A stretch of 25,874 nucleotides of DNA, from IMG/VR virus record IMGVR_UViG_3300024302_001294, positions 1-25,874 of that record; one strand, given 5' to 3'. This document shows positions 1 to 22,098 of this stretch, piece after piece. Positions within the stretch are counted from its first letter, which is position 1; each line of letters starts with the position of its first letter. The position numbers and the translations under genes were made by a program. The notes under the pieces are model-generated. The model did not search any database, was not told the DNA's origin, and worked only from the letters and a program-made list of their open reading frames with translations. Source of the DNA: a virus.

Positions 1-3000
1 TAATATTTCAACACCAGGTGGAATAATAACTTCACCTAGTACTTTAGCTATTCCACCCTCTGTAGGGAAGAAGTTACCAGTTAGTACACTAGATTCCATG
101 ATAGTTTCAATATCTAAGTTTAACATACCATTAGCTATCCACAATAATCCAACATTAAGAGGTTTCTCTTTAACTAAGTTAAATGTGGCACGTTGAATAC
201 GAATCCAGTATTTAACAAAGAACAATAAACCTGAGTCATTACCATACTGTAAGTATCTATTCAAAGGCTGGTCATAGTTAACAAATGTTTCAACCATTTG
301 TGTGTATGCCTTGTCTTTACTGATACCTTTAACTTCAGTATCATGTGAATACATTGCGTATCGTGCAATAAAGTCACTCACTTGAGTAAAGTGCATCATT
401 GTTTTAAAAGTAGCAGTTTGCTCGCCCATGTAAGCTTGGTTAGCTACATCTAAAACTTTTCCTTTAAATAACCCATCTAACTTCTGACCTATAACACTAT
501 CTTTAATTTTCCTTGCAGTTTTATGTCGGTATGTAAAGTCATTTTTATTAATGTCTTCAGTGATTGAGTTGAATAAACCTGCATCAATAAATTTAGCTAC
601 TTTATTCTTATTTAGTTTAGCTGTTAAACGTTTAATCTTCTTATCAATCTGTGGGTCGTTTCGTAACTTAGGGTTACCTAGTCTATCTAATTCAAGTAGT
701 TGTAATTTATGTGCATCTTCTTGATATCTAACAAGTTCTTTGTAACCTTCACGCCACTTTTTAATTAAGTAGCCTGGCGGTACTCCATACATCATAGATG
801 TAATAAAATTACTTGTAAAGTTAACCATTGGAACAATTGGAATCTTAATAACAATAGCTACTTTAGCTAATGCTACTGTTTCAAATATGAGTTTTTCAAC
901 AACTTTAGCATAACGTTGAGCTTTAAAGCTTTTACTAAATAAAATAGTATTAGATATTGATGGCATTTTGTAACCAAATACTACATCTAATAGTTTTTGC
1001 TCTACATTGAATATTTGCTTATTCTTTTTACTGTCACGTTTAGCTATGTAAAGTATGTAGTTACGTGTTGCTCTTGGTAACACATCAAAGTATTCCTCTT
1101 TGTATTTACCATCTAAAATATTAACAAACTTATGTGGTGCTTTAGCATAGTTAAGTTGTGTGTGTTGATACAACAAATCCATAGCTTCTTTATTTATTTT
1201 TTCTGAAGCTACTTTATCTTGTTGATGGCTGTACATTGTAGGCATCACTTCATTGAAAGCAAGCTTTTGCTTTAATAAACGCTCTAACATCACATGTTGC
1301 ATGTGGATAGAGTAATCTACAATTTTGCCTTCTTCGTTAATGATGGGCAACATAGTATGATGTGCATCAAGTGTATTTTGTGATTGTGTCTGTTTCTTAC
1401 GCCATCTTCTAAACACAGCATTTATCTGTCCCTCTGCTTTTGGGTTTCTGCCGATAATTTCTTTAAATGAGGTACCCGCATGATGCTTAGAGGTAACAGA
1501 GGCAATACCTTTAGTTCTCATTATATCTGGGTTATTTTTGATAACATAAATGCCATAGTTACCATCATGTAAGCCAGTGATTACTTCAAAGTTATCCACA
1601 AAAATATAACCTTTCTTTTCCATGTCTGCTCGTGTTACATCATCATTAGGAGCAAATTCAATTTGAATATCAGAGTCTGTTATTGTAGCAATATAACCTT
1701 TAGTCATCAATGCAGGGTTACCATTAAAACCTGCATTTAATGACTCTTGTTTAAATGCAATATGGTGATGAATTATATGTGTGATACCATTATGTGCACT
1801 ATCTAAAGCAAATTCTCTAGCTGCAACGTTAGCTACATCTTTTCTTGGTGAATACTCAGCATCTTGTAATGCTAGTAATGTCACATACACATCCATATCC
1901 TGTATTTCTTCTTTTTTAGTACCTTGATGCGTACGCTTATTAGGATTAGTTTTAACAATCATATGAGCATTCTTATACTGATTACGATTATGAACTTTAC
2001 CTGTCATCATAAATTTAGCTAACTCAGATGATTGAACAGCATAGTGCGTGTTGTTATCAATGTCTAAGGTATCTTCGTATTTAGCTATTTCTACTGCTAA
2101 TTGTTTACCATCAGTTAATAGTCTAATAGCAGCTTCCATACTGTAAGCACCACTAGCTTCTAATATTGAGAAGTCTGATTTTAGTAATACTCGAGTAATT
2201 GAATCTTTCTCATTATCTGTCAATGCTTCTAAATCTAAGAAAGCTGTTAACAATGATTTCTCTGTTAGTTCTTTGTAAGCAACACGAGCTTTATCAACTT
2301 CTTTTTGAGATTTGTACATTAGCTTAATGAAATCTTGATCAATTCCACCGAATGCATCAGCTTTAAGTGCAGCTATGTTGTGGCGTAAGTTAGGTTTAAA
2401 GTACTGGAACGCTTTATCTAAACGTGCCTGTAATTCAGGATGTTTATTAATAAACTCACCATACGTAGATGTCATTAATGCTACTAGCTTAGTGTCATAC
2501 AATATATTAGCTAAGAAGTTATCAATCTTACCGTCTTTAGTAAGTTTATCAACACCTTTGATGTATGCATCAGAAGTTACTTTAAGTCCTTTAGCTGCAG
2601 CATCTTTTAAGAAGTCAGAAACTATTACATTAGCTGAGTCATACTTCTTAGTTAGCTGTTGCTTTCTAATAGCATATTTAATCGTACCACTGCGTTCATG
2701 GCTAACTGTAACCATATCTTTAGTGAGATTAAATATCTCCATTTCTAAATTAGCAGGTCTAGACTTTTTGTTTAAAACGTTTGAAATACGTGTAACAACT
2801 TCTGTTAATAAATCGACAACCTTAGTAATTATGTTAGCACTACTTTCTTTGTCCCATAAAGGTACGACATTAGCTGACATACTACTTAGTTGTTTAACTA
2901 AATGCTTGTTAGTTAATGCATAAGCTAAGAACTCATCTAAGTAGTGCTCATCTGGCATACTGTCACCAAACACATAGTTGTATTGCTGTTTAGCGGCTTC

Positions 3001-6000
3001 AATCTCAGCATCTTTATCTGTTAAGTAAATAACTTTACCATCTGCATCTTTATGTAAAAAGATTTCATAAGGATTAGCCATCTTATCTAACTCAGCTTTA
3101 ACAGCATTTCTAATCTCAGTAACTTCTGATTTAAATTTCTCATCTTTTGCTAACTTACTACTTGTTAAGATGTGAATTAACTCATGTAAGTAAACTTCTT
3201 GAGCTGTCTGCTCTGAGTAGCTATTAGGTGCATATTTATTAATGTGTACTTTTACAGTTTCTGAACCTAATGACACTTCACCTTGAGCTTTAATTTCTGA
3301 CTTTTTAAGCACAACTGTTGTGTTATCTAACGCATTACCTGTCGGTAGTATAATCTCGTCTAATACACGCTGTAAGTGGCTTGCTTGCGCCTCTTTTTCT
3401 TGGCTGTTCGGGTAGTATCCCGTCCAGATATTATTAAGCTTATTGAATATATTCTGTGCTGTTGTTTTAAGTGAGTTTGTTTTATAAATTTCTTCAGCTT
3501 CTGCGTCTACTTCATTATCTAATGAACCTAAAGTATCTGAATCTTTATTAGCCACTTCACCTTGTTCTAAATCTTTAGTTATTGTAATGTTCTCAGGTAA
3601 GTCTTTCCCTTCCGCACCAAACTCTAAGTCACCAGTTCCAACTAACACAAGACGCTCACTAGGCCTAGATGTTGCTACATATAATGAAGATAATTTTGTT
3701 AACCAGTCTGGTGAACCTTGGTTACCCATAATATTTTCATAATCTACATACACAGTTTTGTAGGTACTGCCCTGTGACTTATGTGTATTAATCAAGTATG
3801 CAGCTGATACCTCAGCTGTTGTAACTTCAGCAATAACTTTATTTTCCATATTATATTTTTGCTGGCCTTGTGACATTTGTTTGTGAACAACACGTTTAGT
3901 AAGTTGTCCATCTTCAAATACTAGATGGTGTATTACATTATCATCAGTTTTAACTTGAAGTATTTTTACTGGTACACCATAATATGTCTTTTTATATTGT
4001 CCACCTACTTCAACTGATATTCTTGCCTCATTTAATTCTTGGATTACCGTTACTTCATCACCATTATGTAAAGCTGATGAAAGTTTAGCTGTATTACCCT
4101 CTACAGTAGCAACACTTTCACCTAGAACAATACGTTCACCTTTTATGAAAGGCATTGCTGTTAAATCTCCTGCATTTTCAACCTCTGGAAATAATTTCTG
4201 ACGTATACGTGAACGTATTGAAACAGTACGAGGTTTAGATTCTTTGTTAAAGTGTATGTATTTAACGTTTGCTGGGTCTTTAATGTACTCTTCAACAAAC
4301 ATATCAATCGTTGCGTCTGTCGGGCCACCCATAACAGTACCTTCTGCGTAATGTACACCATCTTGCTTACCATTTTCAGGTACTTTAGGTAGAACAAAAC
4401 CTGTTTGTTTAGATGTACCATCGTAACTTTTTGCATTTCTAAAGATATACTCAATTGTGTTGGCAAGAATATCCGTAATACCCAAAATAGGTGAATCTTT
4501 ACCTTGGCGCATACGTTCAGTTAACTTAACATAGTTGTTAATGTTAATGCCCAAATCAATTTTTTGATTAAAGCCCATTACATTATCGAATACTGCAGAT
4601 AGTGAAATCTTACCTTTAGTGTCTTCAATAGGAGGCAGTTGAACATTGTCACCCATGAAAATAACACGTATATCTAACTCTTTTGATAGTTTTACTATTT
4701 CATCAGAAAACTTCTCACTAACCATTGATACTTCGTCTATTACAATTAGTTTAGTCTGGTCTTTTTGCAATTTTCTAATAGATGCAGCAAATTTATCATC
4801 ATCTCTTGCAAAGAAGAATGAGCCTGTGCGTTTATCATAACGTTTTGTTTGTCCTAATAAACTAGCTAGTGTTGTAAAATGGTCTTCTGCATAACCATCA
4901 GTAGCATTTGCTATTACTTTTTTAGCTTTATGCGTAGGCAAAGCAAATTTAACGCTATTTTTAGCAACACCTAATTCTTGTAATGCTCTACTAACGATTG
5001 TAGTTTTACCAGTACCACCTCTACCTGCTAATACAAAAAGCTTATCTTCAGACTTCCACCATTCTTTCATTTTATTGATAGCGTTGGTTTGCCCTGCATT
5101 AGTTAGTACGTCATTACCTTCACCATCTTCAAATAACTTATAAGATTCTTCTGGTGTGAATTCTGGAATAATTTTTTGAGTATTTACAGTTATTGGGGTT
5201 GCTTCGATGGTGTCGGCTTCTGTAGTTAAAACATCAATTACACTTAAACTTGCACTTAATGCTTCATCTAATAATGTATTGTCTTTTAAACCTAGTAAAT
5301 TACGCACAGTTTCTACGAATTTATTCCATAAAGTTTTATTTCCTTTGTACTGTTTACTCTTCAAATACGTCTGTACACGCTGGTCTGTTAGTACCATAGT
5401 CAAAAATTCATCTAACTGTGCCGTAGCAGGTAGGTCTAAGAAATTATCAACTATGTCCATATCTTCTGCTGGTACAAAGTCTTTACCATCCATAAAATAT
5501 TGCATACTATGTTGAGTATCTTCATCTACATTGCCTGCTTTTACATCTGCATAATAAATATCTGCGATTAATTTTCGGGTTTCAAACATTTTTTCTATCG
5601 CTGCTTTACGTTTACCTGTCAATTTACCTTCAAAAATTTGTTGAGTTGCTGCGTGTATCAGCTCGTGCAATAATATAGTGCTAGTGTCTGTTGGATTTAA
5701 TAACACCATATTAAGACTTTTAGAATAATATGAACGATGTTTTTCTTTAGATAGTGGATTAGGATATTTATCAAAATCTGATGAAACTTTAGTGTCTTCA
5801 GACAACAAAGGTATTAACATCTTAGCAATATATCTAATATAGTTAGTTTGATTTTTGCTATTAGCTAACTTAGTTGCAGCATCTTTAGCACTCTTAAACC
5901 CTTTGACAATGTTTGATGGTACCGAAGTACCTTGTAGTGCTGTAGTAGTTTTCTGTTGAGTAACTTTAGTCTCAACTTTAACACTTTCGATAGTTGCCTT

Positions 6001-9000
6001 GCCATCAGCAATCTCTTTAAGAGTCTCTGGTAAGTACATCTGACTGATAGTAGCATTCTCTAACCACTCATTACCAAATACCTGTGCCATGATGTTCTTC
6101 ATGCGAGCAACTCTAGCCACTTCTTCATGGAAACCCATCTCAATAGCATCAAAGCCTAATGCAGCAATCTGGCTTTCAATAATAGCTCTTTCTGCAGGGT
6201 CTTTAGTAGTCTCTAACTTGTTAAGTAACTGTGTTGCTTCATGTGAGTTTTCTCTGTAATCTTTGTTAACAGCCTCAATAGCTTCTTTACTTAAATTACC
6301 TTTAACTGCTAGTGTTCTTTCTAAAGCTTTTTCTAATACACTAAAGTTAAGTGCTACATCTCTGAATGCTTCATTATACTCATTACTATTATCTAGAGCA
6401 TCAGTGACGTTAGACATGATTGCATCAAAGATAGCCAACACTTCAGGATTCTCAAGTAATGCTTCACCTAATATAACTGAATCAATGTTTTGGATAGTAT
6501 TTGTGTAAGCACTAACGCTTGGAGTTACATACTCTCTCTGGAAATTTGAAGCAATAATAGACTTCTTACCAGTAGTATTTACTACCTTAAATTTCTTGCC
6601 GTTTTTAACAGCAAACTGTATTCTCTGTTCTTTGAACAATACATCATTTCGATTAGAAGAATTCTCTAAACGAATGTCTTTAATAATTTGTATTAATGTA
6701 TCGTCACTTGACCAAGGGCCATACACTAATGGCATTAGTTCTACAGCTAAACTTTCAGCAATAGCTTTCTGTTCAGTTAGTGTTAGCTTTTCTACAGCAA
6801 CACCACGCTTATCTGCTTGTACCTTTAATGCTTTTGTATACTCATGTTTAAAGGCTCTGTATTGAATATCACCACTTTTTATTATTGCATCTCGTGCTTT
6901 AGCTAATGGTTTAATGAACTCATCTAATGCAGTAGTTATAGCAGGTGTGAATATATCTTTAAAGTCTTTTTGTATAGTGTAGCTTTGTCTTTTATCTAAG
7001 GTAAATGATTTAAGCTCATCTTTCTTAAGCATTGCAACTATTGGAATATTTTTATCTTTACCAACTTGAATGAATGAGCTTAGTGCTTCTTCATACTTGG
7101 TTGCTTCTGCAACTACAGCAGCTTTATCTGACTCAGATACAGCATTATTATATTTTGTTTGTAACTCTGCAATATCATTGTATATTTTAGGAATGATATC
7201 AGCAGCTAAGTTTTGAATAATCTTGTTAATTTGAGCACCATAACCACTAATCATTAGTGGGTTCTTTGCAAGATTTCTGCCAAATTTAGAGATTGAGTCT
7301 TTAGCGCTATCCCATAAATCACCATGAATAATAGTTAGAGCATCTAAATTATCCTTAGTTATTTCACCCTCTTTTTTACTACGCTCTGCATTGATATCTA
7401 TCAATGCATCTTTTGATGCAAGTGTCTTCTGTATGAATGAGGCCAGTGATTCATATACATCTAACTCACCACGCTCAATGAACTTCTCCATTGTTTCGCC
7501 TGGCTTAACCATCACACCTACACGGGCAAATGCCTGTGCTAGATGTTCAGCAATTTCTTCATCAGTACCGTTATCAAGTAACTCGTCAGGTACACCATAA
7601 AACTGTAATAGAGCAATCGCATAACCATTTGTAATACCATCAGTCTCAACGCCTAATTTAGCCGTTTTAAATGATTTGGTTGGATGATACTTAGCTAATG
7701 AAGCTAACGCCTCAATTACGTGCATACTAGGGCTTATATCACCATCTTTTAGTAACTTAGCTAGTGCTTTATTAAATGCAGGGCCTTTAACGTCACCTGC
7801 TTTAATTAGTTCAACGATATCATTAGTAACTTCAAGAATTCTATCAAATTCTACAAGTGAACCTTTAAGACCATTCTTATCAATGCCATAACCTAATGCT
7901 TGTGCAATACTGACTTGGTATAAAGCTCTGTCTAACTCTGATTTAATTAAGACATCAGCTGACTTAGGCATGAATAAAGCTCTGTGTATCTTACTACGTT
8001 GACCATTTATACCATTACTGTCAATTCTAACTCTATGTTGCTTCTGTGCAATATACTTAAACCAGAAAGACTGTGAACCTTGTTTTATGTAATCTTTAAC
8101 TTGTTTAACGTCTTTACGTTTATCTTCATTAGAAGTCTTGTAACCATCTACACTTTCATCATGTTTAGTTTCAATATCTTGAATATCTAATAAGATATCC
8201 ATATTAGTATCATCAACTAAATCAAATAGACCTAAAGCTTCTTGTTTACCTATCCATTCAACATTCTGAAGTTTTTCAATTAACTTTTGAACTTTATCAG
8301 GTAAAGCTATAAAGCTATTACGCACATACTTTTGAATATTTTTACTTGGGCTTAGTAACGGCTCAGCTAACCTAGATTCAGTGCCATTAATAAGTGTAAT
8401 ATTCTTTTTGTTACTTTTAAAACTTTCAATTACATCTTCCAAACCGTGTACATCTTTATATGTACCGTCCAGTAGCGGGAACTTAATTGTTTTAATTCTA
8501 CGTGCCTGGTCTTTCTCAATAGCTATTTTTTGTTTTTTCGTAAGGTTAGTATTGCCAACAATTTTCTTTAACTCAGCATTCTGCATAAACTCAACATGTG
8601 AGTATGTTGTATGGTGTATTTTTACTATACCATCATGTCCAAGCTTACTGTCTTTAGTATGTACAGTTGATGCTATAACTAAAGCCATCTGTCCTAAAGC
8701 TACTTGTAATTCTTTCCCAATACTTGGGTCTTTAATTACAGTACCATTTTTATCAACAGATTCTAAAATGTCATAAGTTAATTCTTGAATCTTTAAACCA
8801 TTCAATGATTCAGCATCTACTTTAATATTTAGGTTATTAAATATATCAACACCCATCTCTGTTGTAGCACTATTCCATAAGATACCCATATTACCAAACT
8901 GTCTAAATTCAGCATTTGTAACTGGATGTTTACGGTCACCATATATTAATAAAGCAATAGCTTGTTTATCTGTAACTTCGGAATTAAACTGATTGATACT

Positions 9001-12000
9001 CATCCAATCTAATGATGTCATCATCATTGCGAATATTACTTCATCTGGTAAAGTTCTAACACCATCGATATCTACGTACAAGTAGTTTAATAACGTACGT
9101 TGTGTGAAAGCTCCATCTTTAGAATCTCTGTTAGGATTATTTTTATCATGCTTAGGCTCTAACAAAGTATCAGTAAAAGCTTTACGATACTCTAAGAAGT
9201 ATTCACCAAGATAGTTAATGAATTTCTGGTCAGTGACACCTATGTCTTTAAGCATCTTAGTAACTACGGTACTACCACCATCTTTATCTAATAAACTTTT
9301 AAGTGGATTTCGTGTGTAAAACGAATCACGTTTGGCGTGTGCAGCAACAAATATATCAAATGATGTGAAGGCACTATCTTTAATCTTCAAGAAGCCATCT
9401 TGAAACTTACTTAACAAGTTATTAATTACTACTACACTCTGACGTTTAGCTACTGCTTCTTTGTCTTGTAATGAATCCAGCTTAGCTAGTAGTTGATTAA
9501 CATATGTTAATGCTTTAGGTAACTTACCATTTTTATCACGTAAAGATTCAATCTCATCTTTAATCTTTTGAATCTGCCTACCTAGCTTATTGATGTAGAT
9601 TTCTAACTTAGTAGCTTTCTTTTCTGATTGCTTTGTAGCAGTCTCACCAATTTTAAGAATTTTTACTGTTTTACCATTACGTCTTTGTCTTTCAAATTTA
9701 AGCGCATTAAGGTTTGCATACATTGTGTATTCAGGCTGACCTGCGTTAAACCTATTATTTAATTTCTCATCAACTCTTGTGATTGCTGATTCTAATTCTT
9801 CATCACTAAGTTTAGCTAAATCAGTCTCTGTGCCTCCCCAATAGCCAGGGAACAGCTCAAATTTAGGGTCTCTAGGATTCTTTGAAACAAGTTCAGAATT
9901 ATCAACAAGGAATACTTCGCCTGTTGTTGGGTCAGTTACCCGAATTGTACCTTCATCACTTATTTCCATAGTTCGTGTGTCAACTTCAATAGGGACACCG
10001 TTAGGGAAATAAAATATTAGGATTTCAGGTTCTTTAGTCGGAGATTTTTCTTCAGTCTCTTTTTTAACAACCGGTTTAGTTTTCTTAACAACAGGCTTAG
10101 GCTTAGTTTCTTCAATCTCAATGTTCTCTAAATCCCCTGTATCAGGTTGTGTTTTCTGTTGTTGCTTTGCAAGCAACTCAGCACTTTGACGTAAAGCTTC
10201 ATCTTCTTTAATTTGCTTAGCTCTGCCTGGAGCTAGTTGTTCACTTGTGTTAATAAGTGAAGCAACTGCTTCACCAAAATTTATCTCAGCATTAATATAA
10301 TGAATTAACTTACTTGATTTATTTGTTACCCACCAGTATTCATCTAAATTTTCAACTAATACACCTTTATCATTCTTTACCTTTGCAGGCTCTGTGGTTA
10401 CAATTGCAAGGGTTTCTTTGTTAATCCATACCTTACCACCATTCTTAACAATATTGTAGGCCTTACGAAATACAACAAGCTTATCTTTTAAGCTTCCAAT
10501 GAAATAGTTAACATCTGAAATTACATCTTTACCTTCTTCAAACAGTCTAAGGTAACTTAAGAAGCCTGTGAATTGTTTGTCTGTACCTAGTAATACATCA
10601 TCACGAACTTGGTGTATATTTTTAGTTTCATTTGTGTGTTTATCTAAAGTATTTTTAGTTTTAGCTAATTTAATATGTGCATCAAGCAGTTCTTTTTCTG
10701 TATCTGATAACTGGTCTTTAAGACCTTTCAACTCTTTTAAGGTTTTATCATTGATAGGAAACAATGAGTACAGAACATCAGTAGTTTTAGCAGTAGCAGT
10801 GGACGGCTTAGCTGGTTTATAACTAGTAGTTTTTTCGTAAGCTACTTCAACTCCCGCAATCTTAGCATCTATGTCTGCTAAACCTTTCTTTAAATTTTTA
10901 ATTTCAACTTTATCAGTAGCTATACCGATAGCTGCAATTAGTCTATCCCTAGCGTTTAAAGCTTTACCATAATCAACAAAGAAAGCATTCATTGCATCTA
11001 GTTTTTCTTTAGTAGTTGAATCTTCATTATCTAATACACTGATAGCATCAGCTGCATTTTTATCTAATGTATCAAAAGCTTGTACATCACTTTGTAATTG
11101 CTCATCTTTATCAAGATTTGCAGACTTATGTTGGAAGTCAAAACTTTGTAAAGTACGTTCAATTTGTTTTGATGATGTTTTAGATAGTACCGTGTTACCT
11201 TGTAAATCATTAATATGTTTACCTAAGTTATTACGTTCCTGTTCTAAACGTTTACGGTGTTTCTTAGAAAGGCTAGTATCTTTTAACTTACGGCTAATAG
11301 CATTTAATTTTTTTATTGATTTCTCAATAGCAGTTCTAACTACTTTAGTCTCAGCACGAGCAGTCTTACGCTGTTTAACATTAGTAGGTTCAACTCTGTT
11401 ATTGGCTTTACGTTGTTTAATATTAATTAAACGTGCGCGTTCAGCATCATACTTTTCTTTTCTGTCTGGGAATTTGGCTTCTAATGCATCAAACTTGTCA
11501 TTGATAGCTTTTATTTCAGCTGTTAATCTAACACCATCAGTAGCGTATTCTTTACGCGCTTGAACAGTAGAGTCATTAGTACTAAACTCTTTAATGGCCA
11601 TAATTAGCTCATTCTTAGCAGATTCTATCTCAACAGTACTTACGTCTGACTCATTAGCATTCTCAGCATTTTGGCTAGTTGTCAAGGAATCTACGTAAGC
11701 AAAAGCTTTCTGTAAGTTGTCCATACCTTCAGTGTCTAATCCACTGAAGTCTAAACTTTCATTTTGCTCTAACTGACTTAAAGCACTATCTAACTTCTGT
11801 TCATTGATAAGTATTTCTTGCTCTGACATGCCAGCAGTATTTTTACCGGCTTCAATTGCTTCTTGTAATATCTGTGCTGTTTGTTCATCTGTGAACTTAC
11901 GGTCACCATCTATTTGTTTACTTAATTGAGACGTTGTAGTAGTAGTACCACTTATAACAGAGCCTGGAACTAAACCTGCTACGAAAGAGTTTGCCATACC

Positions 12001-13896
12001 CCATAAGAACTGGCTACTAGCCATGTCAGGTAAATGACCATTCTTAATTAAATCTTGGGCAGCTTCTTCAATTACAAATTGTAATGCTTCAGTAGTACCT
12101 TCAGTTAAACCTCCGGCAGCCATCTCTTTACCTATTACTTTAAATACTTGACCCGCACCATTCTTACGGAAAGAGCTATATAAAGTTTTAGTACCTTGGT
12201 TACCTAAGCCCATTTTCTTAAGAACTTTCAATGGGTAGAACATTTCTAATGTAGCAGCAGCTGAACCACCAGCTAAAGACATAGTAATAGCTTTAGCATC
12301 TCTATGGCCAGCTACTGCTACATCACCATAAATACCACCAGTTTCCATTACATTAGCAGCTAAGTAACCACCAACTGATGCTGACCTATTCTTAATTTTT
12401 TGTAATTGTTTCTTACGTATTTGTTTGTTGACATATTTCTTACCCATGTACTCGGCACCTTTACCAGCAGCATATCTTAAACTACCATAACCAACGGCTA
12501 CGGCACCACCAGTAAAGTATGCAGCTAGTGCAACACCACCTATCTCAATGATAGATGGCATAGCTTCACCAAGTAAGCCCACTAACTTTCTCAGTGCAGC
12601 ATCTGGATTAGACCAATCCACTTCTTCAATAGGAGGTAAGTGTGCACCATTACGCTGAGCTTCATCAATGTTATCTAAATAATGCTCTAACATCTTAGTA
12701 GCAAACTCTGTGTTTCCGGTTGCATCTGCGAGTAATGCAGCAAAACCATAACCGGTAGCTTGTAAGTTATCTACACCTGAACTAAAACTATCTTCAAAAA
12801 CTTCCCAGTATGTATCCTTACCTTCAAGACTGTTAACTAAAGCTTGTTTTCTCTCATAAGCTTTACGTGTTATGGGCTGTCCCATTGAATCAACATATTG
12901 ACCTGTTTTAAGTTGACCATAATCTACAGTCATAGACCTAGCTTTAGCTGCTATTCTTGCTTCTTTTTCTGATTTGTGTACACTAGTAGGTTCTATGTCA
13001 CCTCTAGCAAGCATTACAGCAACTTCATCATCTGAGTATTGCTTACCATCCCAGATGGTAGGAACATTAACCCACTTACCATCTACCTCAAGTGTTGTAG
13101 ATTTCTCAGAAACAATTTCACCATTTAAATAAAATGCAGGTCTTCCAAACTGTGTATTACCAACAACTTGACCTTCATTAGGCATCTTGAAGTTAGAGTA
13201 ATTACTACCATTCTCAGCTTCGTATTTAGAACGTATTTCGTTTTGTTCTGGAGTGTTATCAAACCACCTAGTATTAAACTCAGGTGTGTTCATAGCATTG
13301 TATATATCAACACCAGTGAATGGGTTTGTTAGCGTAGCTTTAGTACGTTTATCTGTTGACCACTTTAATGATGTGGGGTCATATGTAGCATCTGCAACAA
13401 TGCCATTATTAATGTCTTGACCTTCAGAGGCAACCTTGTCAAATAACTCTTCTGAACGTTTACCCATAGCAAAGATAACATCATTAGTTATCCTGTCTTC
13501 AGGCACATTCCATAACTTAGCATAGTGAGCACGTTGGCTATCCCTACCTTTACTTTCAGCTTTATAAAATGATGTCTCTGGTGCATCAATTCCTAGAGCA
13601 CGTAATCCAGCTTCTTTATCACCTAAAGTAAAATAACCTGAATCTGCATCAGTACCTTTACCTTGTAAGTTTTTGAAAGTTACCCTGTTAGTACCTTGCT
13701 CTAAAAAGTTAGAATTACCTTGTTCAATTCGTGTAGATACATTATCTAAATAACTATTACGTATAGCTTCTTCTAAAAAGGTTGTTGAGTTACCTGAAAT
13801 GTCAGATAATTTTTCACGTTTACGTGTACTTGTTGAAGCTAAACTCTGTATTTTACCTGCTACAACACTACTAAAAATCTCAGAAGATGAGGCCAT
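1..13896 (-). CDS. Giant polyvalent virion protein (nuclease, membrane-active region, two zincins, helicase), 3' end outside window
   Basis: One reading frame stays open from ATG at 13894-13896 to base 1, giving at least 4632 codons; its stop lies beyond the left edge. AAGGA stands about 9 nt before the ATG, 12 nt after the previous stop. Read in order: SNase-like nuclease (about 70-215), a VPTIWDG module (about 255-325), a Gly/Ala-rich hydrophobic stretch (about 430-655), a basic coil (about 780-900), a Lys/Pro linker (about 1264-1278), a long helical charged region, zincin 1 (HELIH 2744-2748), SF1 helicase (about 2925-3425), zincin 2 (HELIH 3571-3575), and a hydrophobic C-terminal segment (about 4336-4374). 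Its place at the end of the structural module, after two small internal-protein-like genes, matches ejected proteins such as T7 gp16. Giant multi-enzyme phage proteins are known as 'polyvalent proteins', thought to be injected with the DNA and to counter host defences. Packaging and injection are inferred; the open frame and motifs are seen. No virion RNA polymerase or transglycosylase motif was recognised. Confidence 0.9.
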   Translation of the reverse strand, partial: MASSSEIFSSVVAGKIQSLASTSTRKREKLSDISGNSTTFLEEAIRNSYLDNVSTRIEQGNSNFLEQGTNRVTFKNLQGKGTDADSGYFTLGDKEAGLRALGIDAPETSFYKAESKGRDSQRAHYAKLWNVPEDRITNDVIFAMGKRSEELFDKVASEGQDINNGIVADATYDPTSLKWSTDKRTKATLTNPFTGVDIYNAMNTPEFNTRWFDNTPEQNEIRSKYEAENGSNYSNFKMPNEGQVVGNTQFGRPAFYLNGEIVSEKSTTLEVDGKWVNVPTIWDGKQYSDDEVAVMLARGDIEPTSVHKSEKEARIAAKARSMTVDYGQLKTGQYVDSMGQPITRKAYERKQALVNSLEGKDTYWEVFEDSFSSGVDNLQATGYGFAALLADATGNTEFATKMLEHYLDNIDEAQRNGAHLPPIEEVDWSNPDAALRKLVGLLGEAMPSIIEIGGVALAAYFTGGAVAVGYGSLRYAAGKGAEYMGKKYVNKQIRKKQLQKIKNRSASVGGYLAANVMETGGIYGDVAVAGHRDAKAITMSLAGGSAAATLEMFYPLKVLKKMGLGNQGTKTLYSSFRKNGAGQVFKVIGKEMAAGGLTEGTTEALQFVIEEAAQDLIKNGHLPDMASSQFLWGMANSFVAGLVPGSVISGTTTTTSQLSKQIDGDRKFTDEQTAQILQEAIEAGKNTAGMSEQEILINEQKLDSALSQLEQNESLDFSGLDTEGMDNLQKAFAYVDSLTTSQNAENANESDVSTVEIESAKNELIMAIKEFSTNDSTVQARKEYATDGVRLTAEIKAINDKFDALEAKFPDRKEKYDAERARLINIKQRKANNRVEPTNVKQRKTARAETKVVRTAIEKSIKKLNAISRKLKDTSLSKKHRKRLEQERNNLGKHINDLQGNTVLSKTSSKQIERTLQSFDFQHKSANLDKDEQLQSDVQAFDTLDKNAADAISVLDNEDSTTKEKLDAMNAFFVDYGKALNARDRLIAAIGIATDKVEIKNLKKGLADIDAKIAGVEVAYEKTTSYKPAKPSTATAKTTDVLYSLFPINDKTLKELKGLKDQLSDTEKELLDAHIKLAKTKNTLDKHTNETKNIHQVRDDVLLGTDKQFTGFLSYLRLFEEGKDVISDVNYFIGSLKDKLVVFRKAYNIVKNGGKVWINKETLAIVTTEPAKVKNDKGVLVENLDEYWWVTNKSSKLIHYINAEINFGEAVASLINTSEQLAPGRAKQIKEDEALRQSAELLAKQQQKTQPDTGDLENIEIEETKPKPVVKKTKPVVKKETEEKSPTKEPEILIFYFPNGVPIEVDTRTMEISDEGTIRVTDPTTGEVFLVDNSELVSKNPRDPKFELFPGYWGGTETDLAKLSDEELESAITRVDEKLNNRFNAGQPEYTMYANLNALKFERQRRNGKTVKILKIGETATKQSEKKATKLEIYINKLGRQIQKIKDEIESLRDKNGKLPKALTYVNQLLAKLDSLQDKEAVAKRQSVVVINNLLSKFQDGFLKIKDSAFTSFDIFVAAHAKRDSFYTRNPLKSLLDKDGGSTVVTKMLKDIGVTDQKFINYLGEYFLEYRKAFTDTLLEPKHDKNNPNRDSKDGAFTQRTLLNYLYVDIDGVRTLPDEVIFAMMMTSLDWMSINQFNSEVTDKQAIALLIYGDRKHPVTNAEFRQFGNMGILWNSATTEMGVDIFNNLNIKVDAESLNGLKIQELTYDILESVDKNGTVIKDPSIGKELQVALGQMALVIASTVHTKDSKLGHDGIVKIHHTTYSHVEFMQNAELKKIVGNTNLTKKQKIAIEKDQARRIKTIKFPLLDGTYKDVHGLEDVIESFKSNKKNITLINGTESRLAEPLLSPSKNIQKYVRNSFIALPDKVQKLIEKLQNVEWIGKQEALGLFDLVDDTNMDILLDIQDIETKHDESVDGYKTSNEDKRKDVKQVKDYIKQGSQSFWFKYIAQKQHRVRIDSNGINGQRSKIHRALFMPKSADVLIKSELDRALYQVSIAQALGYGIDKNGLKGSLVEFDRILEVTNDIVELIKAGDVKGPAFNKALAKLLKDGDISPSMHVIEALASLAKYHPTKSFKTAKLGVETDGITNGYAIALLQFYGVPDELLDNGTDEEIAEHLAQAFARVGVMVKPGETMEKFIERGELDVYESLASFIQKTLASKDALIDINAERSKKEGEITKDNLDALTIIHGDLWDSAKDSISKFGRNLAKNPLMISGYGAQINKIIQNLAADIIPKIYNDIAELQTKYNNAVSESDKAAVVAEATKYEEALSSFIQVGKDKNIPIVAMLKKDELKSFTLDKRQSYTIQKDFKDIFTPAITTALDEFIKPLAKARDAIIKSGDIQYRAFKHEYTKALKVQADKRGVAVEKLTLTEQKAIAESLAVELMPLVYGPWSSDDTLIQIIKDIRLENSSNRNDVLFKEQRIQFAVKNGKKFKVVNTTGKKSIIASNFQREYVTPSVSAYTNTIQNIDSVILGEALLENPEVLAIFDAIMSNVTDALDNSNEYNEAFRDVALNFSVLEKALERTLAVKGNLSKEAIEAVNKDYRENSHEATQLLNKLETTKDPAERAIIESQIAALGFDAIEMGFHEEVARVARMKNIMAQVFGNEWLENATISQMYLPETLKEIADGKATIESVKVETKVTQQKTTTALQGTSVPSNIVKGFKSAKDAATKLANSKNQTNYIRYIAKMLIPLLSEDTKVSSDFDKYPNPLSKEKHRSYYSKSLNMVLLNPTDTSTILLHELIHAATQQIFEGKLTGKRKAAIEKMFETRKLIADIYYADVKAGNVDEDTQHSMQYFMDGKDFVPAEDMDIVDNFLDLPATAQLDEFLTMVLTDQRVQTYLKSKQYKGNKTLWNKFVETVRNLLGLKDNTLLDEALSASLSVIDVLTTEADTIEATPITVNTQKIIPEFTPEESYKLFEDGEGNDVLTNAGQTNAINKMKEWWKSEDKLFVLAGRGGTGKTTIVSRALQELGVAKNSVKFALPTHKAKKVIANATDGYAEDHFTTLASLLGQTKRYDKRTGSFFFARDDDKFAASIRKLQKDQTKLIVIDEVSMVSEKFSDEIVKLSKELDIRVIFMGDNVQLPPIEDTKGKISLSAVFDNVMGFNQKIDLGININNYVKLTERMRQGKDSPILGITDILANTIEYIFRNAKSYDGTSKQTGFVLPKVPENGKQDGVHYAEGTVMGGPTDATIDMFVEEYIKDPANVKYIHFNKESKPRTVSIRSRIRQKLFPEVENAGDLTAMPFIKGERIVLGESVATVEGNTAKLSSALHNGDEVTVIQELNEARISVEVGGQYKKTYYGVPVKILQVKTDDNVIHHLVFEDGQLTKRVVHKQMSQGQQKYNMENKVIAEVTTAEVSAAYLINTHKSQGSTYKTVYVDYENIMGNQGSPDWLTKLSSLYVATSRPSERLVLVGTGDLEFGAEGKDLPENITITKDLEQGEVANKDSDTLGSLDNEVDAEAEEIYKTNSLKTTAQNIFNKLNNIWTGYYPNSQEKEAQASHLQRVLDEIILPTGNALDNTTVVLKKSEIKAQGEVSLGSETVKVHINKYAPNSYSEQTAQEVYLHELIHILTSSKLAKDEKFKSEVTEIRNAVKAELDKMANPYEIFLHKDADGKVIYLTDKDAEIEAAKQQYNYVFGDSMPDEHYLDEFLAYALTNKHLVKQLSSMSANVVPLWDKESSANIITKVVDLLTEVVTRISNVLNKKSRPANLEMEIFNLTKDMVTVSHERSGTIKYAIRKQQLTKKYDSANVIVSDFLKDAAAKGLKVTSDAYIKGVDKLTKDGKIDNFLANILYDTKLVALMTSTYGEFINKHPELQARLDKAFQYFKPNLRHNIAALKADAFGGIDQDFIKLMYKSQKEVDKARVAYKELTEKSLLTAFLDLEALTDNEKDSITRVLLKSDFSILEASGAYSMEAAIRLLTDGKQLAVEIAKYEDTLDIDNNTHYAVQSSELAKFMMTGKVHNRNQYKNAHMIVKTNPNKRTHQGTKKEEIQDMDVYVTLLALQDAEYSPRKDVANVAAREFALDSAHNGITHIIHHHIAFKQESLNAGFNGNPALMTKGYIATITDSDIQIEFAPNDDVTRADMEKKGYIFVDNFEVITGLHDGNYGIYVIKNNPDIMRTKGIASVTSKHHAGTSFKEIIGRNPKAEGQINAVFRRWRKKQTQSQNTLDAHHTMLPIINEEGKIVDYSIHMQHVMLERLLKQKLAFNEVMPTMYSHQQDKVASEKINKEAMDLLYQHTQLNYAKAPHKFVNILDGKYKEEYFDVLPRATRNYILYIAKRDSKKNKQIFNVEQKLLDVVFGYKMPSISNTILFSKSFKAQRYAKVVEKLIFETVALAKVAIVIKIPIVPMVNFTSNFITSMMYGVPPGYLIKKWREGYKELVRYQEDAHKLQLLELDRLGNPKLRNDPQIDKKIKRLTAKLNKNKVAKFIDAGLFNSITEDINKNDFTYRHKTARKIKDSVIGQKLDGLFKGKVLDVANQAYMGEQTATFKTMMHFTQVSDFIARYAMYSHDTEVKGISKDKAYTQMVETFVNYDQPLNRYLQYGNDSGLLFFVKYWIRIQRATFNLVKEKPLNVGLLWIANGMLNLDIETIMESSVLTGNFFPTEGGIAKVLGEVIIPPGVEIL
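775..888 (-). other. Hydrophobic segment near the visible C-terminus of the giant protein
   Basis: Residues about 4336-4374 form a long hydrophobic stretch that includes ALAKVAIVIKIPIVPMV followed by TSNFITSMMYGVPPGY and then a basic WREGYK segment. It could form a membrane-inserting hairpin. The region between it and base 1 is helical and aromatic-rich (for example GLLFFVKYWIRIQRATF), without a motif I can name. Confidence 0.4.
2872..3294 (-). other. Zincin metallopeptidase domain 2 of the giant protein
   Basis: Residues about 3535-3675. EVYLHELIHILTSSKL carries HExxH (H3571, E3572, H3575), and YLDEFLAYALTNKHLVKQL (from 3652) gives the likely third ligand E3655, 83 residues downstream. The downstream motif shares LDEFL, LT and V..L with domain 1, so the two look like duplicated copies on either side of the helicase. 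Both keep every zinc ligand. Outside these motifs they differ clearly, so the duplication is old or the two came from separate sources of the same family. Confidence 0.7.
3622..5124 (-). other. SF1 (RecD/Dda-like) helicase domain of the giant protein
   Basis: Residues about 2925-3425 show the ordered motifs of a superfamily 1B helicase. A Q-motif-like LTNAGQTNAI has Q2936. Walker A is GRGGTGKT (2958-2965, K2964). Walker B is LIVIDEVSMVS (D3054, E3055). Motif III is GDNVQLPPI (3082-3090). Motif V/VI includes THKSQGST (3371-3378) and YVATSRPSERL with the arginine finger R3411. All ATPase residues appear intact. Its placement between two peptidase domains in a putative ejected protein suggests it acts on incoming or host DNA; that role is inferred. 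Phage helicases are normally separate early genes, so the fusion is unusual. Confidence 0.85.
5347..5754 (-). other. Zincin metallopeptidase domain 1 of the giant protein
   Basis: Residues about 2715-2850. ILLHELIHAAT carries the HExxH zinc-binding and catalytic motif (H2744, E2745, H2748). Downstream, LDEFLTMVLTDQRVQTYL (from 2828) supplies a likely third zinc ligand, E2830, 85 residues after E2745. This H-E-x-x-H plus downstream Glu layout is that of gluzincin-like peptidases, which also occur in phage polyvalent proteins. It would cleave proteins, either the giant protein itself, other virion proteins or host targets; the substrate is unknown. Domain 2 has the same pair of motifs at the same spacing. 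Confidence 0.7.
11197..11559 (-). other. Basic coiled-coil segment of the giant protein
   Basis: Residues about 780-900 are strongly helical and rich in Lys, Arg and Glu, with runs such as KQRKANNR, KKHRKRLEQERNNLGKH and EKSIKKLNAISRKLK. The net positive charge suggests nucleic-acid binding or packing against the genome inside the capsid. No enzymatic motif is visible here. Confidence 0.4.
11932..12609 (-). other. Gly/Ala-rich hydrophobic, probably membrane-active region of the giant protein
   Basis: Residues about 430-655 hold several hydrophobic Gly/Ala-rich stretches: GGVALAAYFTGGAVAVGYG (about 450-470), SLAGGSAAATLEMFY (about 534-550) and WGMANSFVAGLVPGSVISG (about 630-650). Between them lie short basic stretches and a GGLTEGTTEAL helix. 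This type of sequence is typical of ejected internal virion proteins that line or cross the cell envelope. No clean signal peptide or standard transmembrane topology is evident. Conduit formation is inference. Confidence 0.5.
12922..13134 (-). other. VPT-x-W-x-G module in the giant protein
   Basis: Residues about 255-325 contain WVNVPTIWDG, then an Asp/Glu-rich 'YSDDEVAVML' helix, then a second helix ending in EARIAAKARS. Short modules of this form ('vPT.w.Gk..s..eA......g.....f.s..eA...A..rs') recur in phage injection and tail proteins as far as I recall. Function is unknown; it may be a small protein-binding or particle-docking fold. The motif is seen; the family link is from memory and only moderately sure. 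Confidence 0.45.
13252..13689 (-). other. SNase/TNase-like nuclease domain at N-terminus of the giant protein
   Basis: Residues about 70-215 of the giant protein match the staphylococcal nuclease active site by hand alignment. DADS (83-86) aligns with the calcium-binding DGDT, giving D85 for D21. LRALGIDAPET (98-108) gives R99 for R35, D104 for D40 and E107 for E43. All spacings match exactly (14, 5 and 3 residues). Further on, DKRTKATL (182-189) resembles the conserved Y-G-R strand, giving R184 for R87, followed by a VDIYNAM stretch like the usual 'vN..lv' helix. All five expected catalytic positions are therefore present, so the domain may be active. It would cut DNA or RNA, presumably in the host after ejection. 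The insert between E107 and R184 is longer than in the Staphylococcus enzyme. Confidence 0.75.
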
Positions 13897-13908: not shown

Positions 13909-14676
13909 TTATTTATTTAGTTGCTTCTTTTTTTCTTTCTCTGATTCGATGAATGCATCTGTTTGAAATTTACCAAGTTTCAAGATATCCATTAAGTCTA
14001 CATTTTCTAATTCTTCAACATCTTTACCACCATATATAAACTCATCGATACCTGACTCATCAAAAGTGAATGCTTGCTTAAATATTTTGATAGCTCTATT
14101 CTGTTCAGCCATTGTATAGTTATTATCTTTAAAGAACCCAGAAAGTTTATCAATAACCTCATCAGCAGGTACATCTGCTATACCCAAACTCCAGTTGCTT
14201 GTGGTACCTGCTTCTTTATTCTGTTTTATCATATCTGCACGATATTGATTTAAGTAGTCCTTACTAGTTTTACCTGAATTTTTTGCTTTATTTTCCGCAA
14301 TAATTTCACTAATTCTATAATCATGTTTAATTTTTTCTTGAGCAGACCAACTAGGGTCAACAGGAGCATTAGCAGTCTTATAAGCTTCGATAACAGTATC
14401 TAAATTAGCAAATGAAGTATTAGGGTCAATTGATTGTAATAAGGCATTTCTATCCTCTTTAGCTCGCTTAATATCTTCAACAGAACCATCATCTGCAATT
14501 AGTGCCATAGCAGCAGTTAGTTCATTTGTTTCTCTGTCACTTCTATCTGAGCGGTATCTTTCAACAGCATCTCCAATACCTGAAATGCCAGAACTCAACA
14601 TCTTATTACCTTGGCCCATTGCTTCTAGGATACTGGCACCGTTAGTTGGTGCTATGTTTTGCCATGTTACTGCCAT
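13909..14676 (-). CDS. Putative internal virion protein (255 aa, helical, charged)
   Basis: A 255-residue protein starting at ATG 14674-14676, with a strong AAGGAGAT ribosome site just upstream. It lies 9 nt after the preceding gene and 12 nt before the giant gene, so the three are probably translated together. The N-terminus (MAVTWQNIAP...) has a Gly/Ser-rich stretch with GISGIGDAVERYRSDR. The rest is mainly helical and charged, ending in a Lys-rich tail (EKEKKKQLNK). No catalytic motif is seen. Position between an internal-protein-like gene and the giant corresponds to T7 gene 15 or the small internal proteins of marine podoviruses, so a role in the ejected core is inferred from context rather than from sequence match. 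Confidence 0.75.
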   Translation of the reverse strand: MAVTWQNIAPTNGASILEAMGQGNKMLSSGISGIGDAVERYRSDRSDRETNELTAAMALIADDGSVEDIKRAKEDRNALLQSIDPNTSFANLDTVIEAYKTANAPVDPSWSAQEKIKHDYRISEIIAENKAKNSGKTSKDYLNQYRADMIKQNKEAGTTSNWSLGIADVPADEVIDKLSGFFKDNNYTMAEQNRAIKIFKQAFTFDESGIDEFIYGGKDVEELENVDLMDILKLGKFQTDAFIESEKEKKKQLNK

Positions 14677-14685
14677 AATATCTCC

Positions 14686-15234
14686 TTAACCTATGTTGCC
14701 ATATTTAGGCACCAATGATGCCATATCTGTCCTACCTTGAGCTTTCTTCCAAGCATTCTGGTCATTTAGTCTGTTATTGATTGTAACAGCTTGAGACTCA
14801 TAATTCTTGTTCCACTGGTCAACTTGGTTACCCATCATTTCTCTAGCCAGCTTAACTTGCTTAAGGCCCGCCCATGCTCCAGCTAATGCACCTGCACCTT
14901 GTAATGCAGAGCCTACGCTTGATAATGTGCCATTATTCATCCAGTTTGAACCACCAGTATCTAAAAACTGTTTATTAGCATTCGTTTGAAACTCCATACG
15001 TTTGTCAATAGGTGACTCCATGAAAGCTTTCTGTTGCGCCCCTGATAAATTACCATAAGCGTTAATATACCCTTGTTGTGCTTGTTGTGGACTTACTGGG
15101 GCATTTGTATTTATACTCCACTGGTCATTTTTATCACCAAACCAATTATTAAGATTAAATTTATCGCTATTATCGCCCCAGTAACTGTTGTTACTGTTAC
15201 TGTTATTATTAATATTATTATAAGGCAATGCCAT
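14686..15234 (-). CDS. Putative internal virion protein, gp14-like (182 aa, Asn-rich N-terminus)
   Basis: The start ATG at 15232-15234 has AGGAGA about 6 nt upstream. Residues 6-30 are dominated by Asn and Ser, encoded by AAT/AAC runs. A small hydrophobic Ala/Gly segment, SALQGAGALAGAWAGL, lies around residues 108-123. It is followed by a helix with MMGNQVDQWNKNYESQ and a polar C-terminus. This plan (low-complexity N-terminus, one short hydrophobic Gly/Ala segment, Gln/Asn-rich helix) is common in small ejected proteins of podoviruses such as T7 gp14, which enter the outer membrane. The assignment rests on composition and place in the operon. A hairpin lies in the 82-nt gap before it. Confidence 0.7.
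   Translation of the reverse strand: MALPYNNINNNSNSNNSYWGDNSDKFNLNNWFGDKNDQWSINTNAPVSPQQAQQGYINAYGNLSGAQQKAFMESPIDKRMEFQTNANKQFLDTGGSNWMNNGTLSSVGSALQGAGALAGAWAGLKQVKLAREMMGNQVDQWNKNYESQAVTINNRLNDQNAWKKAQGRTDMASLVPKYGNIG
15145..15222 (-). repeat. AAT/AAC-rich low-complexity tract encoding poly-Asn/Ser
   Basis: The 5' end of the 182-aa gene is a run of AAT, AAC and AGT codons giving Asn/Ser-rich residues 6-30. Such triplet tracts are prone to slippage and length change. Confidence 0.5.
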
Positions 15235-15271
15235 AAACTTCTCCTAAATGTTTTTAATTTTAAATAAATGT

Positions 15272-15303
15272 ATCTCTATCATACATCAAAGTAGATATGA
15301 GAT
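15272..15303. other. Imperfect hairpin in the 82-nt gap before the gp14-like gene
   Basis: ATCTC, TATC and TAC on one side pair with GTA, GATA and GAGAT on the other around a 6-nt loop, with two single-base bulges (12 bp in all). On the minus strand it is followed by an AT-rich stretch but no clean T-run. The other strand has GTTTTTAC just beyond it. It may be a weak terminator, an RNA-processing site or a protection hairpin separating the 882-aa gene from the ejection genes. Confidence 0.45.
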
Positions 15304-15316
15304 GTTAGTTTTTACT

Positions 15317-17965: not shown

Positions 17966-18001
17966 GTGTTATCTCCTGTGTATTTACATAAGGGTACTAA
18001 C

Positions 18002-18529
18002 TTACGTAGGCTCTGCGTTTGTTATTTGGGTGTTTAGGTTACCTGTACCCGTTGCGTTAATAGCAGTAATGTTTGTAGCAGCTACTCCAGCTGTACTAAC
18101 GTTAATACTCCATGCATCCATAAGTGTCTTAAGATACTTCTGGTCAGCATTCCACTTGAACCCTTTAGCTTGCTCACCATATAAATTGGATTGCTTACCT
18201 AAAATACTATCAGCATGTGGTGCTGTCTTAGTAGTCTGTTGCGTCTGTGCATATTCAGTAATTTCTTTCTGACCTAATACAGCGGATTCAGCATTAGTCT
18301 TTTCTTTACCTAATGTGAACGAAGCAGAGTTCTGTAAAGCACTCTGCATAGCTCCTAAGTACACAGTAGCGTAATCAGCACCCGTTATCCTACCTAAATG
18401 GAATTGTGCGTCTAAATGGATGTTTACGGCTTCCATTAGGTCATCAAAGATACCAGTACCTGTAACTACATAGTCTGCACTAGTGGTTAAGGCACTTCCT
18501 TGGGTTAAATCTGTATTAGCTACTGTCAT
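18002..18529 (-). CDS. Conserved phage structural protein, unknown function (175 aa)
   Basis: Start ATG at 18527-18529; the AGGA ribosome site overlaps the end of the preceding gene, 4 nt upstream, suggesting translational coupling. The N-terminal half has FDDLMEAVNIHLDAQFHLGR, then ITGADYATVYLGAMQSAL, a helical pattern I associate with small structural proteins found after the capsid gene in marine podoviruses. The middle is Gln/Thr-rich (TEYAQTQQTTKTA), and the C-terminus is Ala/Thr/Asn-rich and probably beta-structured. No enzymatic motif is visible. A head-tail connector or tail-assembly role is possible from gene order only. Confidence 0.75.
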   Translation of the reverse strand: MTVANTDLTQGSALTTSADYVVTGTGIFDDLMEAVNIHLDAQFHLGRITGADYATVYLGAMQSALQNSASFTLGKEKTNAESAVLGQKEITEYAQTQQTTKTAPHADSILGKQSNLYGEQAKGFKWNADQKYLKTLMDAWSINVSTAGVAATNITAINATGTGNLNTQITNAEPT

Positions 18530-18533
18530 AATA

Positions 18534-19127
18534 TTATCCTACTGAACTTGTTGCTTTTTGTCTTACTGCAATCTTGTCAACTTCTTCCTGTGTTAAGTCA
18601 TCTAGTACTTCAACATTGTATGCTTTAATCTTTTGAGGTTCCATAGTCTCTTGACCATTACGAACAACCTTTTTAAAGATTTGACATTCAGCTGCTTTAA
18701 TATTTTCAAAAATGATATTAGGAACGTGCCAACCTTCTTCATTATTAAATGGTACGTATTTTTTAACTACTTTACCGCCGTTAGCTACACTGTTACCAAA
18801 ACTAAAAATCTCACCTGTTGACTCAAGTTTAAGTGGGTCATTAGGTCGTACGATAACTCTGATTAGCTTCATAGTGTTATCTTCACGTAGACCTTCTAAT
18901 TCAACCCCATTGAATTTAAAGTCATCTAGTTGGTCTGCTGTAATTAATACAGCTGTTGGTATTTCTTGTGTTGCTTCTGTTACTGCTTCCATATTATCAC
19001 CCTCCGTGATAGGTAAGTTATTTAAAGCTTCTTCAAGCTTTTCTCTTTTTGAATTAAAGTGCATCTTAATACCGTTTTCGGCCAGCTTATCGCTTATCTG
19101 TTTAGATGTCATATCTTGTATATTCAT
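18534..19127 (-). CDS. Structural protein with HeH/SAP-like N-terminus (197 aa)
   Basis: Start ATG at 19125-19127 with a strong GGGAGGAA ribosome site just downstream of the capsid terminator hairpin, so it may begin a less expressed part of the operon. Residues about 4-38 (MTSKQISDKLAENGIKMHF, then SKREKLEEALNNL) fit a HeH/LEM/SAP-type helix-extended-helix motif, usually DNA-binding or a protein-docking element in phage structural proteins. An acidic linker follows (about 40-60). The C-terminal domain (about 60-190) is beta-rich, with VRPNDPLKLESTGEIF and WHVPNIIFENIKAAE. A capsid accessory, connector or head-fibre role is plausible; the function is not established. Confidence 0.7.
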   Translation of the reverse strand: MNIQDMTSKQISDKLAENGIKMHFNSKREKLEEALNNLPITEGDNMEAVTEATQEIPTAVLITADQLDDFKFNGVELEGLREDNTMKLIRVIVRPNDPLKLESTGEIFSFGNSVANGGKVVKKYVPFNNEEGWHVPNIIFENIKAAECQIFKKVVRNGQETMEPQKIKAYNVEVLDDLTQEEVDKIAVRQKATSSVG

Positions 19128-19159
19128 AATTAGTTCCTCCCGGGAATTCTATTAGTAAA

Positions 19160-19192
19160 GTAGCCCGCCCGCACTTCGTGCTAACGGGCTAC
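19160..19192 (-). terminator. Hairpin terminator after the major capsid gene
   Basis: An 8-bp outer stem (GTAGCCCG with CGGGCTAC) encloses an inner GCAC/GTGC stem with a 3-nt loop, offset by small internal loops. On the minus strand it is followed by a short TTTA rather than a long T-run. It lies 16 nt after the capsid stop, where T7 has T-phi after gene 10. It may end transcription partially, giving high capsid and lower downstream expression, or act as an RNA-processing or stability hairpin. Confidence 0.7.
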
Positions 19193-19208
19193 AAAGGTTA
19201 AGCTCTAG

Positions 19209-20492: not shown

Positions 20493-20503
20493 GATATTCT
20501 CCT

Positions 20504-20515
20504 ATAAAGCTTTAT
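20504..20515. repeat. Perfect 12-bp palindrome before the capsid gene
   Basis: ATAAAGCTTTAT is a perfect inverted repeat in the 28-nt gap between the scaffold stop and the capsid ribosome site. It is AT-rich, with no loop, so it is a weak RNA hairpin at best. It could be a protein-binding or processing site, or chance. Confidence 0.35.
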
Positions 20516-20520
20516 TAAAT

Positions 20521-22043: not shown

Positions 22044-22082
22044 CGTGTGTCCTCTTATTGAGATTTAAACAAGTAAAGTGTT

Positions 22083-22098
22083 TTACCGAATTATATCA
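22083..22098 (-). promoter_or_regulatory. Candidate extended -10 promoter before the small-protein/scaffold/capsid genes
   Basis: In the gap between the portal and the 112-aa gene the minus strand reads TGATATAAT (complement of 22090-22098): a perfect TATAAT with a TGn extension. No good -35 lies 16-18 nt upstream, which extended -10 promoters do not need. Initiation near 22083 would give scaffold and capsid their own transcript from host RNA polymerase. The gap is AT-rich, so a chance match is possible. Confidence 0.35.

Follow-up and report, generated by a model that had tools for sequence, protein, structure and literature searches.

An N4-type virion RNA polymerase gene with a built-in SF1B helicase, predicted in an uncultured Schitoviridae-like phage

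INTRODUCTION

The locus described here raises the question of what a phage gene of at least 4,632 codons encodes, and why a helicase should lie within it. The answer bears on the virion RNA polymerases (vRNAPs), since how these enzymes find single-stranded promoters on linear incoming DNA and aid genome entry is only partly explained. Coliphage N4 needs host gyrase: its vRNAP is inactive on native double-stranded DNA, and its early promoters need that enzyme (PMC4496689). The N4 vRNAP is ejected first and binds the membrane, host gyrase extrudes the hairpins that serve as its early promoters, further entry is driven by transcription, and the C-terminal domain autoinhibits the RNAP (PMC4496689, PMC12633501). 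N4-type RNAPs with one or more zincins have already been described among the polyvalent proteins (Iyer et al. 2017; PMC5512222), where the partners listed for them are a zincin, lysozyme, PBECR RNase and ART, an SF1 helicase being absent there.

RESULTS

A stop-free frame of 13.9 kb

The window that we analyzed is a complete IMG/VR record of 25,874 bases, and the early promoter region lies outside it. Compared with known phages by megablast, the window gave no match. On its minus strand, one frame runs from an ATG at position 13896 to base 1, the end of the record, for 4,632 codons with no stop; the plus strand opposite is rich in stops, and the longest stop-free run in 100 base-shuffled copies of the window was 204 codons. 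The single open frame reported by an earlier sequence-only reading is therefore real. That reading had wanted the true stop located in flanking sequence, and a related contig (L002) places it: there the same protein extends 8 residues beyond W4632 and then stops, so that the full length is about 4,640 aa.

Independent contigs share the domain order in open frames of 4,709, 4,933, 5,001 and 5,963 aa. When the helicase was compared with that of L002 (67% amino acid identity), substitutions were concentrated at the third codon position (0.43, against 0.24 and 0.19 at the other two). The shared order and this third-position excess make sequencing error or chimerism unlikely, including the hidden stops that the sequence-only reading had named among the things that would refute it. 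Although the frame comes from a single metagenomic contig whose 3' end is missing, we give virtually no credence to an assembly artefact or a decaying fusion, because the relatives, with the same in-frame order and mostly third-position substitutions, already contradict it.

An N4-type virion RNA polymerase beside an N4-like structural module

The features of the giant gene, from the amino terminus of the protein onward, are as follows.

1..13896, minus strand: virion RNA polymerase with built-in helicase, whole gene; truncated at its 3' end by the record boundary, lacking about 8 codons
9235..13896, minus strand: N-terminal part, aa 1-1554; putative ejection/membrane domain, from its location relative to the RNAP
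13576..13656, minus strand: short SNase-like signature, aa 81-107 (DADS..R99..GIDAPE), unproven; from the sequence
12316..12573, minus strand: aa 442-527, weak match (E 0.17) to the predicted membrane-helix region of N4 vRNAP
6190..9234, minus strand: N4-type single-subunit RNA polymerase domain, aa 1555-2569; RNAP profile E 3.5e-67; R1955, D2086, K2211, Y2219 and D2491 at presumed catalytic positions
5212..5892, minus strand: zincin 1, aa 2669-2895, equivalent of N4 C1; HELIH 2744-2748, Glu 2830; profile 1.5e-14
3577..5199, minus strand: SF1B helicase of Dda/RecD2 type, aa 2900-3440; motifs, profiles and fold match
2782..3303, minus strand: zincin 2, aa 3532-3705; HELIH 3571-3575, Glu 3655; C1-type profile 1.4e-9
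1..2781, minus strand: C2 domain, aa 3706-4632; C2 profile and PDB N4 vRNAP matches

The order in the protein is thus N-terminal domain, RNAP, zincin 1, SF1B (Dda-type) helicase, zincin 2 and C2. The sequence-only reading had missed the RNA polymerase, which several lines of evidence identify. PHROG 2206, annotated as virion RNA polymerase, matches the giant protein with an E value of 0 and 2,221 bits; Pfam places the N4 RNAP helical domain at aa 2202-2328; and the C-terminal part matches the PDB chains of full-length N4 vRNAP determined by cryo-EM (E 3-7e-27). The RNAP, C1 and C2 profiles were built from 12 cultured Schitoviridae vRNAPs of 3,240 to 3,819 aa, and the C2 profile covers aa 3477-4606 (E 2.8e-138), a span that includes zincin 2. 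N4 residues R1421, D1556, K1667, Y1675 and D1948, which we take from the N4 mini-vRNAP literature to be the catalytic positions, align with the five residues listed above for the RNAP domain, and all five are kept.

Nine genes upstream of the giant gene match the order of N4 gp51-gp59, which replaces the T7-like structural module of the sequence-only reading with an N4-like one.

13909..24245, minus strand: nine structural genes corresponding in position to N4 gp51-gp59, from gene order versus N4
13909-14676, minus strand: gene 1, position of N4 gp51
14686-15234, minus strand: gene 2
15317-17965, minus strand: gene 3
18002-18529, minus strand: gene 4
18534-19127, minus strand: gene 5
19209-20492, minus strand: gene 6, major capsid
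20521-21705, minus strand: gene 7
21705-22043, minus strand: gene 8
22113-24245, minus strand: gene 9, portal

The portal is of the SU10/N4 type and is 59% identical to that of Salmonella phage FSL SP-058. The gene in the gp51 place encodes 255 aa, compared to 644 aa for the N4 periplasmic tunnel ejection protein. Also within the structural module lies a beta-ketoacyl-ACP synthase-like gene (24545-25549, minus strand; fabF model E 1.9e-17), preceded by a small acyl-carrier-protein-like gene (25551-25874, minus strand) with a DSLG motif and a weak PP-binding match (E 0.15). The same ACP-ketosynthase pair, at 30% identity, stands beside a P22-type tail gene in the unrelated circular phage genome MW202545.

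Because the PHROG, Pfam, PDB and profile matches, the catalytic residues and the nine-gene order all agree, we identified a Schitoviridae-type vRNAP in an N4-like module. The RNAP domain carries its presumed catalytic residues, a C1 zincin and then C2 follow it, and the gene adjoins the gp51-gp59 virion genes. From these sequence comparisons, the giant gene almost certainly encodes, in the architecture listed, the vRNAP of an uncultured Schitoviridae-like (N4-type) phage. As a large multidomain phage protein with several unrelated enzymatic domains, encoded with virion genes, it is also a polyvalent protein; on this the sequence-only reading was right, down to the SF1 helicase, the two zincins and the neighboring structural module, with ejection presumed.

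Coliphage N4 gp50 and other Schitoviridae vRNAPs (PDB 9pnr, 11fw; PMC12633501) share with it the gene position, an N-terminal domain assigned here by position, the RNAP with the same presumed catalytic residues, the C1 zincin and C2. They measure 3,240 to 3,819 aa, whereas this protein reaches about 4,640 aa and differs from gp50 in an SF1B helicase inserted after zincin 1 and an N-terminal extension. The published polyvalent proteins, which are injected, are likewise large and multidomain, but the partners given there for N4-type RNAP include no SF1 helicase (PMC5512222).

The N-terminal part

The first 500 aa of the giant protein are 81 to 87% identical in three close relatives (L027-L029). 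Membrane-active stretches had been proposed for this part and remain plausible: hydropathy over the first 1,000 aa is modest with no strong peak, but aa 442-527 align weakly (E 0.17) with N4 residues 230-308, overlapping the membrane helices predicted at 224-278 of N4 vRNAP (PMC12633501). An SNase-like nuclease had also been proposed. Its characteristic residues (DADS, R99 and GIDAPE, aa 83-107) are kept in the three close relatives, and the signature in aa 81-107 is unproven as a nuclease: Pfam searches of protein slices at E<=10, the SNase profile PF00565 against the giant protein and a PDB search each gave no SNase match, and an AlphaFold2 (AF2) model of aa 1-440 (pLDDT 41) was too poor for a judgement of fold. 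The best-modelled N-terminal stretch, aa 244-321 (about 12933-13167), is a small beta-rich segment (pLDDT 50-74) that is highly conserved in L027-L029 and may be a separate injected-protein domain.

A complete helicase between two zincins

A complete SF1 helicase sits between zincin 1 and zincin 2. Its motifs are Walker A (GRGGTGKT, aa 2958-2965), Walker B (DEVSM, 3050-3059), motif III (GDNVQLPP, 3080-3089), motif V (THKSQGST, 3365-3378) and motif VI (VATSR, 3405-3412), all intact and invariant or nearly so across five lineages. The predicted helicase model had T4 Dda (3upu) as its best PDB match (E 7.3e-17). Motifs, profiles and this structural match confirm the SF1 helicase of the sequence-only reading, and the motifs together with the predicted two-domain fold place it by family in SF1B, as a Dda/RecD2-like enzyme. 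It shares fold and motifs with T4 Dda, RecD2 and N4 gp37; those helicases, by contrast, are stand-alone and encoded with replication genes, and the fused helicases form a separate clade.

A helicase Walker A at this place was absent from all 12 cultured vRNAPs examined (3,240 to 3,819 aa). Within the sensitivity of tblastn, nothing in the entire phage collection, of which 458 records carry the vRNAP C-terminal domain, matched a zincin-helicase-zincin query over 80% of its length; among the matches listed, identity was at most 32%, and the records bore stand-alone helicase names or were unannotated. No relatives of the RNAP/zincin 1 junction came up in a scan.

The two zincins belong to one family, and HExxH with a downstream Glu, the signature of the polyvalent-protein metallopeptidases, is present in all 16 aligned domains; both are accordingly putative metallopeptidases. 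The sequence-only reading had listed them after the helicase. Two zincins are indeed present, with HELIH at aa 2744 and 3571, but the helicase lies between them and about 900 residues lie beyond. The AF2 model of zincin 1, helicase and zincin 2 was fair only for the helicase and part of zincin 2, and we therefore make no claim on the zincin fold; a structure of N4 C1 is available (PMC12633501). In N4, DEV and SP058, copy 1 is retained and copy 2 is degenerate, in contrast to the intact second zincin here. We rejected the idea that zincin 2 is unique to this phage, given those degenerate copies and the two HExxH sites of Vibrio phage phi 1. Three complete helicase-bearing relatives (L005, L012 and L013) have HExxH in copy 2 only.

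Helicase-bearing vRNAPs in other uncultured N4-type phages

Scans of IMG/VR revealed ten independent N4-type lineages, the window included, that encode the helicase in the vRNAP gene or gene cluster. In the window and six relatives (L002, L003, L004, L005, L012 and L013), the helicase, zincin and C2 share a frame that also includes the RNAP in every contig long enough to reach it; this repeats in related phages the domain order that the sequence-only reading had proposed to compare. Elsewhere the parts are divided. One gene of L015/L050 encodes RNAP-helicase and the next zincin-C2; in L020/L051 the RNAP has its own gene and helicase-zincin-C2 another; and L010/L052 joins the helicase to the N-terminal domain in one gene and encodes RNAP-zincin-C2 separately. 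Because the helicase of L010/L052 sits on the N-terminal-domain gene, tight physical coupling of helicase and RNAP is not universal. The complete 5,963-aa frame of L003 (17-17905, plus strand) is longer by about 900 residues in the stretch from helicase to zincin 2 and carries an extra GxxxxGKT near aa 835.

A C2 tree put the helicase-bearing group and the 12 cultured phages on opposite sides (support 90/93), a split for which a single gain, or a single loss in the cultured clade, would suffice.

The same helicase lineage on crAss-like polymerases

In seven further contigs (L016, L017, L018, L019, L021, L023 and L024), the helicase lies at the C terminus, or close to it, of giants that have no N4 RNAP. 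All seven have the crAss-type DxDxD motif (e.g., GSDFDIDK). Two of them were compared with crAss-like RNAPs by tblastn, and both matched: L016 to phi14:2 gp66, a catalytic RNA polymerase subunit, and L019 to Flavobacterium and crAss-like virion proteins. In most of the seven, a zincin recognized by the N4 C1 profile precedes the helicase; that of L021, L023 and L024 has KExxH in place of HExxH and is therefore probably inactive. A cultured relative, Flavobacterium phage Fpv3, has a crAss-type RNAP and a zincin in a 4,287-aa "structural protein" without the helicase. Both the N4-type enzyme and the crAss-like vRNAP of the Cellulophaga phage phi14:2 gp66 type are giant virion RNAPs, and uncultured relatives of the latter end in a zincin and a helicase of the same lineage; the crAss-like polymerase fold is nonetheless unrelated (DxDxD, two double-psi barrels), and C2 is missing.

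In our helicase trees, all fused copies from both polymerase types formed one group (support 100/99, 97/94 and 99/99); N4 gp37-type, crAss replication and Dda helicases fell outside it, and it included no phage replication helicase. These trees have no root, some of the stand-alone helicases sit on long branches, and because sampling began from the fused form, the count of stand-alone members may be too low. A relocated N4 gp37 replication helicase was considered as the source and dropped, as the trees do not support it and G017, a relative, encodes a stand-alone helicase separately. Inside the fused clade nests a single chromosomal helicase, that of a Bacteroidota MAG (L026, 4706-6208, plus strand); by its placement, it is possibly a donor to the phages or a capture from a phage. 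Such chromosomal helicases look rare, and a common bacterial helicase was likewise dropped, as only the query's own genome matched in a 41-genome sample of the phylum (E<=1e-15).

DISCUSSION

The virion RNAP, the zincin and C2 are already known; the new part is the helicase fusion. In the open literature searched, we found no description of a helicase fused to an N4-type vRNAP or shared with the crAss type, which is not proof of absence. The architecture that the sequence-only reading did not know as described is accordingly part old and part new: RNAP, zincin and a large C-terminal domain are published (PMC5512222, PMC12633501), and the order with the helicase was not found described. Among the sequences examined, we found the helicase-vRNAP combination only in uncultured phages; the unrelated, putatively injected crAss-like polymerases carry a helicase of that lineage too.

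An injected polymerase with its own ATP-driven DNA-unwinding motor is, in our judgement, probably the best explanation overall. By homology, a few vRNAP copies would be held in the capsid and ejected ahead of the DNA, the N-terminal domain would anchor them at the inner membrane, and early genes would be transcribed during genome entry. The helicase, whose activity is suggested by its family, would be an injected ATP-driven motor on single-stranded DNA, acting on the incoming DNA in cis with the polymerase. As SF1B enzymes run 5' to 3', a helicase on the non-template strand would travel with the polymerase. It might open or hold open early promoters, aid elongation, pull the genome in, or do several of these, and the chain, once delivered, may be cleaved by the zincins into functional pieces. 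For a role in promoter opening and/or genome entry we consider the chances evenly balanced. The ten N4-type lineages, the seven crAss-like giants and the single clade of fused copies (99/99) speak for a polymerase-helicase partnership, whereas cultured vRNAPs manage without a helicase, and in L010/L052 it is not on the RNAP gene.

Of the alternatives, the strongest, though unlikely, is that the helicase is cargo, released by the flanking zincins and acting alone to start replication or recombination or to protect genome ends, with no part in transcription. Processing by such zincins has been proposed, but the vRNAP of N4 is packaged as an uncleaved chain (PMC5512222). HExxH and the downstream Glu are intact in the two zincins beside the helicase here, yet the complete relatives L005, L012 and L013 have the downstream HExxH only; and while L050 and L051 have gene boundaries between the RNAP, helicase and zincin-C2 parts, a stand-alone helicase is encoded separately in at least one relative (G017).

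Less probable still is a translocase that reels the genome in, replacing the transcription-driven entry of N4 and not involved in promoter opening. Helicases of this SF1B type move along single-stranded DNA, and the incoming genome is double-stranded, even if an ATPase in the same chain would be well placed. The vRNAP does belong to the DNA ejectosome and is tied to N4 genome injection (PMC12633501, PMC4496689).

Polyvalent proteins do contain zincins among other effector domains (PMC5512222), but the "attack kit" of nuclease, helicase and proteases against host DNA and proteins, as the sequence-only reading pictured it, is improbable, since the protein is built around an RNA polymerase, neither profiles nor PDB matches nor a confident model support the nuclease, and early transcription with genome entry is the more economical account.

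Returning to the injected polymerase with its own motor, we advance with some reserve, at rather less than even confidence, a broader proposal: one SF1B lineage may be a shared, exchangeable partner of injected RNAPs of two unrelated folds, N4-type and crAss-type, forming with them a self-contained engine that would unwind its own template without host gyrase. A natural enzyme that joins RNA polymerase and helicase in one chain would also be unusual. Equipped with its own helicase, from a lineage found beside two unrelated polymerase folds, such a vRNAP would make the question of promoter opening and genome entry directly testable.
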